The notes under the pieces were generated by a model. That model did not search any database. It was not told the DNA's origin and worked only from the letters and a program-made list of their open reading frames with translations. A DNA stretch of 64,000 bases from Crocinitomicaceae bacterium (GTDB taxonomy: Bacteria > Bacteroidota > Bacteroidia > Flavobacteriales_D > Crocinitomicaceae): positions 62,001-126,000 of the forward strand of contig JAHEMJ010000001.1 in assembly GCA_024643725.1 (NCBI GenBank). The letters run 5' to 3'. A program made the position numbers and the translations under genes. Below are positions 38,855 to 43,840 of this stretch, one piece after another (position 1 is the first letter of the stretch; the number at the start of each line of letters is the position of its first letter).

Positions 38855-40836
38855 TCCACCAAACTTATGAATGAATGTGTCATTGGGAAATAGTAACTTA
38901 GTTTATCTCCTTCTTGTAAAACGAAACTTTCATGATCGAAGCGTTGAATGCGATCGTATTGAATGGCCAAAACTTCTTTTCCATCGCGTGTAAATATCCC
39001 ATGTTTCTCTTCAATACTTAAATAGAAATACTGTTGCTCAAAGGGTTTGATATTTGAAAAGGTAACAGGTAACACCATTTTACCTCCTTCATTCACCAAG
39101 CCAAAAAATCCTTCGCGCTCAACTAAGTAGCCCATCTCTGGAAAATACCGAATAAAGTCATATTCAAAAGGAAGAATGACTTTCCCTTTCACATCCAGCA
39201 AGGCCCAATTTCCTTTGTCTTTGACTGGCCAAAATCCGGTGTAGGGTCCACTTGCTTCGTAAACCGGTTTTTGAACCAACTTACCAGTGACATCCATCAA
39301 TCCATATTTTTCTTTTTTTCGGTATACCGCATAGCCATGATGAAACTTGGCCACATTCAAGGCATCAGAAAACCATTCAACATTGGAAGGCAACATGAGT
39401 TTACCCGTCGAGTCAATGTAATTTAATTGTCCATTCACTTTCACCACTGCCCTATTTGATGACGAATCTAAATCTCCAATAAATTCATATTCTGGATGCA
39501 CCTTAGACATTTTATGAGAAAAAGTGAGCTCCATTGGAGAATCAATGTACTCAACTTGTTCAAAATTCAAATCATACATGGTTATCTTTCCATCCTTTTC
39601 CGTATCGTAAAAACTTCCTGTAAAACTGATATCATTAAACTCAAGAGGAAAAACCAATTTACCAATTCTATCAATCACTCCATATTTGTCACCCTTGCGG
39701 ACAATTGCACGGTTATTCACAAACTCAAGAATTTCATCGTATTGAAAATCTACCACCACTTGATTTTTCTTATCAATGATACCAAATTTGTCATCCTTCG
39801 AAACAACCGCTAATCCTTCTTGAAAAGGACCCACTTCGTTATACATCGCTGGAATGATTAATTTTCCTTGGCCGTTCATGAATCCATAACGACTTTCCTT
39901 GATGACCGGGTACAACTTCATTTGAAACAAATCGATGTCCACCGCTAATTCTTGCATAAATGGATAATCGGGATAATCTCTCTGAAAATCATGGTATTTT
40001 TCTTCTGAATAATCCTTCAAATAAATTTTATAGACATTACGCCAAGCTTCATTGACAAATGGATTGCTTTGATAGGTCCGAACAAAAGAAGCATATTCTT
40101 CCAGGGAATGCTGTGCGGTTGCCAAGGAATAAATTTCCTTTGCCGCTTCCATATGATGGGTATTTTCTGGACAATCCTGATAAAAAGACACGAAAGAAGT
40201 CAACAAACCATCTTTGGTGTATTCTTGAAATTGTAAATCGTAAAATAAGTGTTGTGCTTCTTGTACAAAGGAAGATTCCGGAAGGGAATCGATGTAGGAT
40301 TTTAAAGCACTTGACACTCCTTTTTCCTTTGCTCGCTCAAAGGCCAATTGATCCCGTAAGTATACAGCTGTGTTTTTCGAGGGGAAAGTTGGATGTTTTT
40401 CAATGAACTGATTCCATGCTGAAACAGAGGGTTTTAATTGTATTTCATTAAAAATCAACTGACTGACATAGTCTCTTTGTGCAAAAATGGCATTGACATC
40501 CAAATTAAAATCGCTTTTCCACTTCAAGACTTGTTTTTCAGGAACATTGGACCAAAGTGATTCTGATTGCAACACAAAACGATAGGAACTATCTAAATTT
40601 CTAAAATCGTTTGTTGCGTATAATTTCGATAGTCCATAATAAGCAATCGCCGTACTTTTTTTCAATCCTTTTCGAAAGTACTCGTTCGCTAAACCATAAT
40701 TTTTATCCGACAAAGCTTCCATTCCTTTTTTGATGGATTTTTGCCCAAAGCCATTCAACGAAAAAACCAGAAAAAAAAGTAAAACGCTTTGCTTTAGCAA
40801 ATGACGGAACGAAATCATATTCTTTTGTCTATGCAT
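38851..40836 (-). CDS. Exported WG-repeat protein with helical N-terminal region
   Basis: 661 residues. The signal peptide is in the first 30 residues (SVLLFFLVFSLNGFG); the Met at residue 7 (ATG at 40818) is a plausible alternative start, avoiding the 8-base overlap with nadE. Residues about 35-300 look like TPR-type helical repeats. From about 310 to the end lie WG repeats of about 40 residues, each with strands like YGFMNGQGKLIIPAMYNEV, FGIIDKKNQVVVDF and YGLMDVTGKLVQ. Such beta-propeller-like repeats bind unknown ligands. It is coupled to the TonB-like gene. Function unknown, probably envelope. Confidence 0.85.
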   Translation of the reverse strand: MHRQKNMISFRHLLKQSVLLFFLVFSLNGFGQKSIKKGMEALSDKNYGLANEYFRKGLKKSTAIAYYGLSKLYATNDFRNLDSSYRFVLQSESLWSNVPEKQVLKWKSDFNLDVNAIFAQRDYVSQLIFNEIQLKPSVSAWNQFIEKHPTFPSKNTAVYLRDQLAFERAKEKGVSSALKSYIDSLPESSFVQEAQHLFYDLQFQEYTKDGLLTSFVSFYQDCPENTHHMEAAKEIYSLATAQHSLEEYASFVRTYQSNPFVNEAWRNVYKIYLKDYSEEKYHDFQRDYPDYPFMQELAVDIDLFQMKLYPVIKESRYGFMNGQGKLIIPAMYNEVGPFQEGLAVVSKDDKFGIIDKKNQVVVDFQYDEILEFVNNRAIVRKGDKYGVIDRIGKLVFPLEFNDISFTGSFYDTEKDGKITMYDLNFEQVEYIDSPMELTFSHKMSKVHPEYEFIGDLDSSSNRAVVKVNGQLNYIDSTGKLMLPSNVEWFSDALNVAKFHHGYAVYRKKEKYGLMDVTGKLVQKPVYEASGPYTGFWPVKDKGNWALLDVKGKVILPFEYDFIRYFPEMGYLVEREGFFGLVNEGGKMVLPVTFSNIKPFEQQYFYLSIEEKHGIFTRDGKEVLAIQYDRIQRFDHESFVLQEGDKLSYYFPMTHSFISLVE

Positions 40837-41602
40837 TTTTCAATTCTGAAGGAATGAGGCAAACGGGTATCGGCTCCATTTTATGTTTATTTGCGGAATG
40901 GAATCCTCTGTAAATACGCAGTACTTCATGTTCTCTAACAGTAAGATTCGCTTCATCACCTGTAAAATCCATGGCCCATTCTAATTCTGGATACGTAGCG
41001 CCAATTTGATCTTCGTCACTTCGTCCATCTTCCCAAAGTCCATCGGTTGGAGCAGCGGTTAAAATAGATTGAACAACTTGAACAGACTCTGCCAATTGAA
41101 AGACCTGCGTTTTGGTCAAATCAGCGATTGGACTCACATCCACACCGCCATCTCCATATTTGGTGAAAAATCCAACACCAAAGTCCTCCACTCGATTCCC
41201 TGTCCCAGCGACCAAACAACGATTTGCTTGTCCAATTGCGTACAAAGTTGTCATACGCAAACGAGCACGTGAGTTCGCCATCGCTAACGGCTGATTCGTT
41301 GTTTCAAATGGCATTAAAGACTCAAAATTATTGAATAGATCCGTCAATGGGATTTCAAATGAGCTCACATTCTGGAAGCGTTGAGAAAGATCTTGGATGT
41401 GTTCCTGTGCTCGGTTGTATTCTGCGGATGTTTGCCGAATCGGCATATTCAACAAAATGACTTTTGCGCCAGTCAACGCACACAAAGTTGATGTCAACGC
41501 AGAATCAATCCCACCTGAAACACCAATGATGAATCCATCAACTTTCGCTTTTTCCTGGTACGCTTTTAACCAAGAAACAATATGTTCGACAATTGGATTC
41601 AA
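40829..41602 (-). CDS. nadE: NH3-dependent NAD+ synthetase
   Basis: 257 residues, single-domain form without a glutaminase. The ATP pyrophosphatase P-loop is GVSGGIDSALTS near 27-38; other conserved parts are NSRARLRMTTLY, LVAGTGNRVEDFGVGFFTKYGDGG and GLWEDGRSDEDQIG. It amidates nicotinic acid adenine dinucleotide with ammonia. The start codon is TTG at 41600-41602: an in-frame TAA, the stop of the upstream gene, directly precedes it and no other start lies before the P-loop, so TTG is forced. It sits between an outer-membrane barrel gene and the WG-repeat gene, back to back with gldB as in other flavobacteria. Confidence 0.95.
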   Translation of the reverse strand: MNPIVEHIVSWLKAYQEKAKVDGFIIGVSGGIDSALTSTLCALTGAKVILLNMPIRQTSAEYNRAQEHIQDLSQRFQNVSSFEIPLTDLFNNFESLMPFETTNQPLAMANSRARLRMTTLYAIGQANRCLVAGTGNRVEDFGVGFFTKYGDGGVDVSPIADLTKTQVFQLAESVQVVQSILTAAPTDGLWEDGRSDEDQIGATYPELEWAMDFTGDEANLTVREHEVLRIYRGFHSANKHKMEPIPVCLIPSELKNA

Positions 41603-42430
41603 TTAGAAAAGAATTGAAAATTTCAACACCACTTGATTTTGCGTTGATTTATTGGAGAAATAGACTTTGTTTAAATTTTGATCTAGAATGAACAATGATT
41701 TTTTATCATCTGATCGATCTAAGAAAAGCGGCACGAATCCATAATAATAACCGAGTTCAGCTTTCAATACCGTTGTTCCAGCAAAATTCCATTCCGCTCC
41801 ACCGGAGAAACCAATGTTTGAATTGAAGATGAACAGTTCCCCTTTTGAACTCATATCCACATTGTCTTTATTTACCCATTGTGCCAAGGGATCATTTAAA
41901 TTATCCAGAGTAAATCCAGAATCATTGATTTTGTTTGACACCAAAAAGCGATTTCGCAATCCAAAATTGGCGAAGTAGCGAAAATCACCGATGAATTCCG
42001 TTCTAAAATTCAGGTAAATAGGCAAGCTAATGTAAATTGGATTGTACGTGCGTTCGCTCAATAAAAAGAATTTATCTGTTGTGGCCACCGTTTCTTTCTG
42101 TGTTTTAATGACTTTGTCCGTGTAGCGATAAAAAACATTTGAATTCTCTTTTTTGTACTTCAAGTTTTCGATATCGAATTCAAGACCGAAGGTATAAGCT
42201 AGGTTTTTAGACTCTTTAAATGCTTTCGTGAAATTGGTTCCCATCGTAAAGGTTGATCCAACGCCATTTGCAGAAAGATAATTGGTTCCCATTTTCAACA
42301 TACTGATTCCAACACCTCCAACTAATCCAGCTTGCAAAGACTTATCTCCAACCGTTTGAGCCTGTCCACCAAGCGTGAAAAATGCCGTAAAAATAACGCA
42401 ACTTGTTCGTTTGATTAAGCGTGATCTCAT
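41603..42430 (-). CDS. Outer membrane beta-barrel protein (porin-like, PorT type)
   Basis: 275 residues with a signal peptide ending GGQAQ. The mature part has alternating amphipathic strands (AYTFGLEFDIENLKY, YNPIYISLPIYLNFRT, YFANFGLRNRFLV, SGGAEWNFAGTTVLKAELGYYYG) and ends in an aromatic C-terminal strand (VVLKFSILF), as in outer-membrane barrels of about 8-10 strands. It matches the outer membrane beta-barrel/PorT group loosely; a T9SS role is possible but not shown. Its stop abuts the nadE TTG start. Its -7 box faces that of gldB. Confidence 0.75.
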   Translation of the reverse strand: MRSRLIKRTSCVIFTAFFTLGGQAQTVGDKSLQAGLVGGVGISMLKMGTNYLSANGVGSTFTMGTNFTKAFKESKNLAYTFGLEFDIENLKYKKENSNVFYRYTDKVIKTQKETVATTDKFFLLSERTYNPIYISLPIYLNFRTEFIGDFRYFANFGLRNRFLVSNKINDSGFTLDNLNDPLAQWVNKDNVDMSSKGELFIFNSNIGFSGGAEWNFAGTTVLKAELGYYYGFVPLFLDRSDDKKSLFILDQNLNKVYFSNKSTQNQVVLKFSILF

Positions 42431-42467
42431 TTGATTCTGTTTTAAGTGTTAATTTTGAACAAAAATA
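42430..42467. promoter_or_regulatory. Face-to-face promoters of gldB (+) and the outer-membrane barrel gene (-)
   Basis: For gldB: TTTG (42430-42433), 16 bases, TAATTTTG (42450-42457). For the minus gene: TATTTTTG at 42460-42467 (plus-strand CAAAAATA). The two -7 boxes are 2 bases apart and point towards each other, so each transcript would cross the other box. Confidence 0.6.
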
Positions 42468-42476
42468 AGAATTATC

Positions 42477-43490
42477 GTGAAACACTTCCGTTTGTTATTT
42501 GTGCTTTTTTCACTTGGGATTTTCCTACTCTCTGCTTGTTCTTCCAACTCCTACGAGGTGGACCTAGATGAAGTTCCATTAAAGGTGAATTTTATTAATT
42601 TAGACTCACTTTCTTTGCACGCCAACTGGACAAAACGCGATCAACTTTTCATGGATTTAAAAAAGAAAGACGAAGAACTATTCAACTTTGCTTTTTCTTA
42701 TGCCTTGGAGATTCCACTTGCATCGGATACAGGATTTAGAAATGGCATCGATCGCTTTTACGCGAATCCCTACATCGCATCCCTTGAGAAAGCGTTGCAA
42801 ACGAAAACATCATGGCGTCAAGCATCCAGCACAGAAATTTTGAACGGATTCAAACGGTTATCCTTTTTCCTTCCATCTTGGAAACAACCCAAACAAGTTT
42901 ATTTCATTAACAGTCGCTTTGCAGCAAGTGCATTTTGCACGGACAAATCGCTGGCCATCGGACAAGAACGTTACTTAGGAGCGAAAGACCGACTCATTCA
43001 ACAATTGCCCTCTTCTCAATTTTACGGTTGGATCAAAGAAGCAATGGAACCAACATTTGTCTCGTCGGATGCTTTACTCGTTTGGATTAGCACGCATGGA
43101 CTAGAAGAAACAACGGAAAACTATGCTTCTGAAATGATTCGTTGGGGAAAAATGTTGTTCCTCACGCACATTTGCTTACCAGATCAACCCGAATCTAACA
43201 TTGTGCGTTACTCCAAAAAAGACTATGAATGGGCAAATGCGAGCACCAAATCTTTCTGGCAATATTTAGTGGATGAAGAAATGCTGTTTAAAACGGATGA
43301 AGAAACGAGAATGAACCTCTTGCACGAAGGTCCATTTACCATTGGTCTTCCGCAAGAAAGTCCAGATCGAATGGGCCGATTCATGGGTTACACCATCGTC
43401 AAACAGTACATGGAAAACAACGACGTCAGTCCAAAAGAGCTGATGAAAACCCCTTACAATAAAATCCTTCAAAAATATCAAGCGAATTAA
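42477..43490 (+). CDS. gldB: Gliding motility lipoprotein GldB
   Basis: 337 residues. It starts at GTG (42477) as MKHFRLLFVLFSLGIFLL with lipobox LLSAC. The mature domain has the GldB pattern: LDEVPLKVNFINLDS, LPSWKQPKQVYFINSRF, AIGQERYLGAKDRLI and, near the end, MGRFMGYTIVKQYMEN. GldB is an essential lipoprotein for gliding and T9SS function in Flavobacterium, though not all carriers glide. The gldC gene follows after 2 bases, and nadE lies on the other side, the usual flavobacterial neighbourhood. It opens a plus-strand run reaching asnB. Confidence 0.93.
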   Translation: MKHFRLLFVLFSLGIFLLSACSSNSYEVDLDEVPLKVNFINLDSLSLHANWTKRDQLFMDLKKKDEELFNFAFSYALEIPLASDTGFRNGIDRFYANPYIASLEKALQTKTSWRQASSTEILNGFKRLSFFLPSWKQPKQVYFINSRFAASAFCTDKSLAIGQERYLGAKDRLIQQLPSSQFYGWIKEAMEPTFVSSDALLVWISTHGLEETTENYASEMIRWGKMLFLTHICLPDQPESNIVRYSKKDYEWANASTKSFWQYLVDEEMLFKTDEETRMNLLHEGPFTIGLPQESPDRMGRFMGYTIVKQYMENNDVSPKELMKTPYNKILQKYQAN

Positions 43491-43492
43491 TT

Positions 43493-43840
43493 ATGAGCGA
43501 TCAAATCACAAAGAAATCAGACATCGTCTTAACGGTTGGACTTGACTCCAATCAAATTCCAACGGCGATTAAATGGAGTGCTCCAGATACCAATGTTTCG
43601 GACGCAGCCGCTTCCGCTTTTCTTTTATCCATTTGGGATCCAAAAGAAAAAAATACCATGAAAATAGATTTGTGGACAAAGGATATGAGTATTGAGGAAA
43701 TGAAGCAATTTTTCCATCAGACCTTATTGACCATGGCGGATACTTTTGAAAAAGCCACAGGTGAGCATTTGATTAGCGAGGATTTAAGAGATTACTGCTA
43801 TCATTTTGCCACAAAAATGGAAATCCTTCCAGAGGAATGA
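43493..43840 (+). CDS. gldC: Gliding motility protein GldC
   Basis: 115 residues, no signal peptide. Family pattern: SDIVLTVGLDSNQIPTAIKW, AFLLSIWDPKEKNTMKIDLW and a C-terminal helical part (YCYHFATKMEILP). It is a small cytoplasmic partner in gliding/T9SS; its loss in Flavobacterium johnsoniae impairs but does not abolish motility. It follows gldB by 2 bases, and its stop overlaps the next ATG (ATGA). Confidence 0.92.
   Translation: MSDQITKKSDIVLTVGLDSNQIPTAIKWSAPDTNVSDAAASAFLLSIWDPKEKNTMKIDLWTKDMSIEEMKQFFHQTLLTMADTFEKATGEHLISEDLRDYCYHFATKMEILPEE

Follow-up and report, generated by a model that had tools for sequence, protein, structure and literature searches.

Bidirectional promoters have been described in Escherichia coli and Salmonella by Warman and colleagues; they are recognised by detection of both RNAs and by mapped divergent starts 7-25 bp apart. 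They are short symmetric sequences at which the polymerase binds either way, one bound complex excluding the other, and from which opposite-strand transcripts begin a few bases apart; the available parts of the reports give common start spacings of 18, 10 and 23 bp in E. coli and of 18 bp in Salmonella (PMC12825309, PMC10268837). As far as the available text of the E. coli study goes, all five tested bidirectional promoters had a basal activity too low for polymerase competition, and one direction could be repressed when the other was strongly activated (PMC12825309).

Promoters of Bacteroidota sigma-A (sigma-ABfr) carry a -7 element, TAnnTTTG, and usually occur alone or as two back to back. 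In Bacteroides fragilis promoters, TTTG is described at about -33. For Flavobacterium psychrophilum, the accessible part of the source places the -7 box at -12 to -5 and gives a median leader of 24 nt (PMC9723704), and the corresponding part of a study of F. johnsoniae reports no identified -33 element (PMC7366714). These parts of PMC9723704 and PMC7366714 hold no discussion of divergent or bidirectional promoters, and a literature search limited to open-licence papers returned no description of face-to-face or bidirectional -7 promoters in Bacteroidota.

In the window (the whole 64-kb stretch of DNA analysed), a 46-bp gap separates a gene for an outer-membrane barrel protein from the divergent gldB and holds, at 42450-42467, TAATTTTG on the plus strand, AA, and TATTTTTG on the minus strand. 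Read along the plus strand, this block is TAATTTTG-AA-CAAAAATA, CAAAAATA being TATTTTTG on the minus strand, and it is almost mirror-symmetric. Both coding strands thus present TAnnTTTG, a match to the Bacteroidota sigma-A -7 element, and the claim of the sequence-only reading that two -7 boxes face each other 2 bases apart in an almost palindromic setting is confirmed. The block is very probably a compact bidirectional sigma-A promoter. Its sequence, enrichment, spacing preference and conservation are established directly; start sites, sigma-A use and expression behaviour are what we infer from them. The features are as follows.

40829 to 41602, minus strand: nadE, NAD synthase, directly after the barrel gene (TIGR00552)
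41603 to 42430, minus strand: outer-membrane beta-barrel protein gene (PF13568)
42450 to 42457, plus strand: predicted -7 box TAATTTTG of the gldB-gldC promoter, 19 nt from box end to the gldB GTG, within the genome's peak of box positions
42455, minus strand: predicted +1 (A) of the barrel transcript, placed five bases past the box end and inside the plus box, 25-nt leader
42458 to 42459, no strand: AA, the 2-bp spacer separating the facing boxes
42460 to 42467, minus strand: predicted -7 box TATTTTTG of the barrel-nadE promoter, 29 nt from box end to the barrel ATG
42462, plus strand: predicted +1 (A) of the gldB transcript, placed five bases past the box end and inside the minus box, 15-nt leader
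42477 to 43490, plus strand: gldB, gliding motility lipoprotein, GTG start (PF25594, TIGR03514)
43493 to 43840, plus strand: gldC (TIGR03515)

The names that had been given to the four genes from the letters alone (gldB, gldC, barrel, nadE) hold against these family matches. The end of the barrel gene abuts the beginning of nadE at 41602-41603, where nadE is listed with a TTG start; the junction suggests either coupled translation or a true nadE start elsewhere. Ten named relatives, with gldB 74-86% identical, are labelled as Crocinitomicaceae (five), Flavobacteriales (four) and Polynucleobacter (one, probably a mislabel).

TAnnTTTG is a real promoter signal in this genome. In a 464-kb sample (the 64-kb window and a further 400 kb, with 429 usable genes), the motif ends 0-59 bp upstream of the predicted start in 113 cases. 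In the same zone the reversed motif occurs 12 times and TAnnTTTG on the opposite strand 38 times; the distance from box to start peaks at 10-19 bp. Both boxes of the block, at 19 nt from gldB and 29 nt from the barrel gene, fall within the 0-59 bp range, and AT and TT, the bases at their free positions, rank as the two most frequent pairs among 101 sampled boxes (18 and 19 occurrences). Past the box, A is enriched at the fifth base (0.55, background 0.34, in the 101 boxes), and remains so in the 97 boxes that have no facing partner (0.53). Upstream, no -33 element stands out: TTG occurs at any single position 15-40 bp before the box in at most 6 of 101 boxes. A TTTG at 42430-42433, which would leave a 16-bp spacer, was considered as a -33 element and discounted, since no TTG position stands out before the genome's boxes. 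As F. johnsoniae likewise has no identified -33 element, a TTTG at -33 was not treated as defining for this lineage. Nearer to the box, TTG begins 3 bases before it in 11 of the 101 boxes and at a distance of 4 bases in 8 (the reversed GTT in 2 and 1). The base just before TAnnTTTG is preferentially G or T in the 101 boxes, a possible extension of the -7 element.

The predicted starts at A42462 and A42455 follow from the position of the F. psychrophilum box together with the A peak five bases past the box seen here. With two TAnnTTTG elements facing each other at 2 bp, sigma-A polymerase would bind either way, one orientation giving gldB-gldC RNA from about A42462 and the other barrel-nadE RNA from about A42455. 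The two starts would be separated by 7 bp, each falling within the A/T-rich segment of the box opposite, and the transcripts would diverge and share no overlap. At gaps of 1-3, the AAA of the opposing box would supply the A five bases past the box. That each start lies in or past the opposing box had been proposed from the sequence by itself, and the predicted positions agree with it.

A block of this kind might also be a chance meeting of two common 8-mers in AT-rich intergenic DNA. Taken singly, the boxes are indeed unremarkable: each 8-mer of the block is seen 11 times where about 9 are expected in the window, and TAnnTTTG 61 times where 65 are expected, and since single boxes occur at chance frequency there, their mere presence says little. 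The facing pair behaves otherwise. The pattern TAnnTTTG-NN-CAAAnnTA occurs once in the window and never in 100 shuffles of it; in the organism's own 2.71-Mb genome it occurs five times, against none for the reversed pattern that served as control. Across 86 genomes of the genus, gap-2 pairs number 237 against 62 reversed controls. Orthologues are counted repeatedly in these figures, the gldB locus accounting for at least 53 of the 237. These pair statistics, together with conservation beyond that of shuffled sequence, make a chance origin almost inconceivable.

The enrichment depends on spacing. In the same 86 genomes, real and reversed counts are 163 and 105 at gap 1, 159 and 66 at gap 3, 171 and 128 at gap 4, and 1963 and 1338 for gaps 4-20 pooled. 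In the genome under study, gaps 0-20 pooled give 24 pairs, not above the 27 of the control, so the pair signal is restricted to close spacing. In 34 genomes of the same class but outside the order, gap-2 pairs count 92 against 58 controls. In the phylum's other classes, they fall below the control (39 against 82 in 111 genomes), and the facing gap-2 arrangement may be avoided there.

A model in which the opposing box serves as start region was tried as an account of the preferred spacing and explains little. Scored by a position matrix built from other promoters, the opposing box does best at gap 3 (2.46 bits), second best at gap 13 (2.03 bits) and equally at gaps 2 and 4 (1.41 bits each). Enrichment is highest at gap 2, a rise that gap 4 does not share, so the model accounts poorly for the spacing.

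Of the five gap-2 pairs in the genome, four occupy intergenic gaps whose flanking genes diverge and the fifth falls within a coding frame; at one of the four (L054), the minus-strand gene is about 250 bp off. The exact 18-mer of the block has a second copy in the same genome (L002 1501-1518, corresponding to C7:190155-190172). It sits between divergent anmK-like and acyl-CoA dehydrogenase-like genes (named by eye), a pair unrelated to gldB and the barrel gene. Among the matches listed, some relatives, e.g., G014, G077 and G078, likewise carry the 18-mer at a second place.

Conservation at the gldB locus was followed through the 86 genomes, 79 of which have a gldB match; 77 loci were examined, leaving out G005, in which the gene is split over contigs, and G073, whose match starts within the gene at the edge of a contig. 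All 77 loci have facing boxes that carry no more than one mismatch and are separated by a gap of 0-6 (60 shuffled sets: mean 2.1, largest 7), and both boxes are exact with a gap of 0-4 at 68 of them (60 shuffled sets: mean 0.08, largest 2), although related genomes among the 77 are not independent. The sequence-only reading had named conservation among relatives as a check, and the block passes it at every readable locus of the genus. The loci form 22 groups whose flanks are less than 70% identical to one another, and gldB identity among the genus matches goes down to 27% over the matched part, which argues for more than mere recent descent. A barrel homologue stands divergent from gldB at 75 of the 77 loci; the remaining two are cut by contig ends and give no hit. 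The gap is 2 at 53 loci, 1 at 10, 0 at five, 3 at four, 4 at three and 5 at two. Farther out, 23 order-level genomes have a gldB match; the facing block is absent from all 12 of their loci examined, five of which show a weak divergent barrel hit (E below 0.001).

The two boxes are not kept equally well: exact copies number 75 of 77 on the barrel side and 70 of 77 on the gldB side. All seven inexact gldB boxes have A in place of G as their last base, at a gap of 0 or 1 and opposite an exact barrel box; the two inexact barrel boxes belong to other loci. The A-ending boxes (in relatives L020, L024, L029, L031, L119, L125 and L131) look like the product of a 1-bp deletion that removed the G. This asymmetry, and the spread of the seven A-ending boxes over several sub-groups with differing flanks, could mean that the barrel-side box alone is important, the gldB-side box being weak and gldB partly served from elsewhere. 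Such an arrangement is unlikely: the gldB box is still exact at 70 of 77 loci, the distance from its end to the first open start is 15-31 nt (median 19) over the 77, and only 8 of 77 have a further exact plus box between 80 bp upstream and 90 bp downstream of the block start.

The near-dyad could instead be an operator, on which a dimeric regulator would control both genes. Elsewhere in the genus, perfect or near-perfect palindromes occur among the gap-2 sites called tandem, as with TACTTTTGCCCAAAAGTA (L063, L075) before a gene that we take to be YebC-like, and in 42 unique sites among the matches listed the first free position mirrors more often than in shuffled sites (18 against 12.4, p 0.036). 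In the same 42 sites, the second free position does not (18 against 16.5, p 0.34), nor do both together (7 against 4.7, p 0.17). At the 77 gldB loci the gap ranges from 0 to 5 while the boxes are kept, unlike a rigid dimer site, for which half-site spacing would be fixed; each half, taken alone, is a promoter box of the kind and at the distance ordinary for this genome, and gap-2 sites precede diverse genes. The flexible gap and the mostly negative mirror test disfavour the operator, which is quite unlikely. The shared regulator that had been put forward for the two genes goes without support on the same grounds, the gap being variable and the free positions showing no clear mirror symmetry. 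The Bacteroidetes SOS repressor motifs given in the available part of PMC8565304, CTAA-N5-TTAG and GGA-N5-TCC, were compared with the block and do not fit it. Four sites called tandem (L063, L075, L069 and L078) carry palindromic or near-palindromic facing blocks at which the opposing box would drive antisense transcription.

If the block is a two-way promoter, polymerase binding there should be exclusive at any instant; with boxes 2 bp apart, the size of the polymerase supports the earlier proposal that an enzyme bound at one box would block the other. From this the same proposal went on to a special case of the two-way promoter, a switch under which gldBC and barrel-nadE would exclude each other. 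The geometry does admit one polymerase at a time, and in the E. coli study, as far as its available text goes, one direction can be repressed when the other is strongly activated (PMC12825309). That text also describes exclusive binding as not necessarily coupling the two outputs at basal activity, with competition at none of the five promoters tested (PMC12825309), and no -33 element stands out among the 101 boxes of the genome sample. The switch is highly improbable, mutual exclusivity of the two outputs is unsupported, and a facing block is by itself no demonstration of regulatory switching. By analogy with E. coli, the gldB-gldC and barrel-nadE outputs are probably independent at ordinary promoter strength, not switched.

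The facing arrangement is a minority solution, which occurs in compact divergent gaps and is not confined to them. The 464-kb sample contains 56 divergent gaps, 21 of them with exact boxes in both directions. Two of the 21, short ones of 46 and 73 bp, have boxes facing at gap 2. In three more the boxes face at wider gaps (8, 20 and 22), one of these three having a back-to-back pair as well, and the remaining 16 have their boxes solely back to back. A survey of context, made with a home-made gene caller on 34 of the genus's 237 gap-2 sites, classed 15 as divergent, 11 as tandem, 6 as coding and 2 as lying at a contig edge. Judged from the proteins, 8 of the 15 divergent sites are the gldB locus; L053, classed as coding in the survey, appears divergent when inspected.

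Other compact geometries occur. Back-to-back boxes 3 bp apart (CAAAnnTA-N3-TAnnTTTG) are one, present in short divergent gaps of the same genome at C7 about 268280-268330 and 321004-321076. A facing block at gap 4, TAAATTTGGGTGCAAAGATA, recurs in the genus, exact in at least 8 genomes (e.g., G007:C22:371729, G014:C10:153692 and G035:C6:125298), and may mark another conserved interlocked promoter.

Counted against the two-way promoter are the minority status of the facing arrangement, the seven inexact gldB boxes and two inexact barrel boxes, the absence of the block from the 12 outgroup loci examined and the poor spacing model. The two-way promoter, for its part, explains how a divergent pair copes with a 46-bp gap. 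A further reading goes beyond it: the genus, whose labelled relatives lie in or near Crocinitomicaceae, would have a promoter class of its own, interlocked and face to face, with each -7 box doubling as the other's initiation region, so that neither could change alone. At gldB and the barrel gene, gliding and a barrel/NAD operon would then be locked in a heritable competitive balance that limits noise or anticorrelates outputs under strong activation. This reading is doubtful at best, its odds lowered because the start-region model explains little of the spacing.

As a two-way promoter, the block brings an idea tied so far, in the work compared, to the E. coli-type -10 element together with the Bacteroidota -7 element and a favoured spacing of its own. 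The genus is deeply diverged and has kept one instance throughout, which offers a testable pair for the question of how interlocked promoters evolve.

Compared with the usual sigma-ABfr -7 promoters, the block has the same TAnnTTTG, a short predicted leader and no clear -33 element; it differs in that two promoters are interlocked within 18 bp. Like back-to-back divergent promoters, it would serve two divergent genes from a single intergenic region. In the back-to-back layout, each box lies on its own gene's side (16 of the 21 sampled gaps), whereas here the boxes have swapped sides, so that both promoters fit the 46-bp gap.

The E. coli -10 hexamer lies at -12 to -7. By arithmetic on this position, E. 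coli promoter pairs of the 10-bp start class would also face each other, across a gap of about 3 bp. The commonest E. coli class, in which one overlapping -10 sequence is shared and the starts are 18 bp apart, differs from the block. With the bidirectional promoters of Warman and colleagues the block shares the short symmetric sequence, a polymerase that would bind either way and exclusively, and opposite-strand starts predicted to lie a few bases apart; its membership in that group is supported by sequence. Set against the E. coli promoters, it is built from TAnnTTTG, with a 2-bp gap favoured among close facing pairs and starts predicted 7 bp apart. Compared with E. coli and Salmonella alike, both directions here serve conserved coding genes, and a single instance is conserved over the whole genus.
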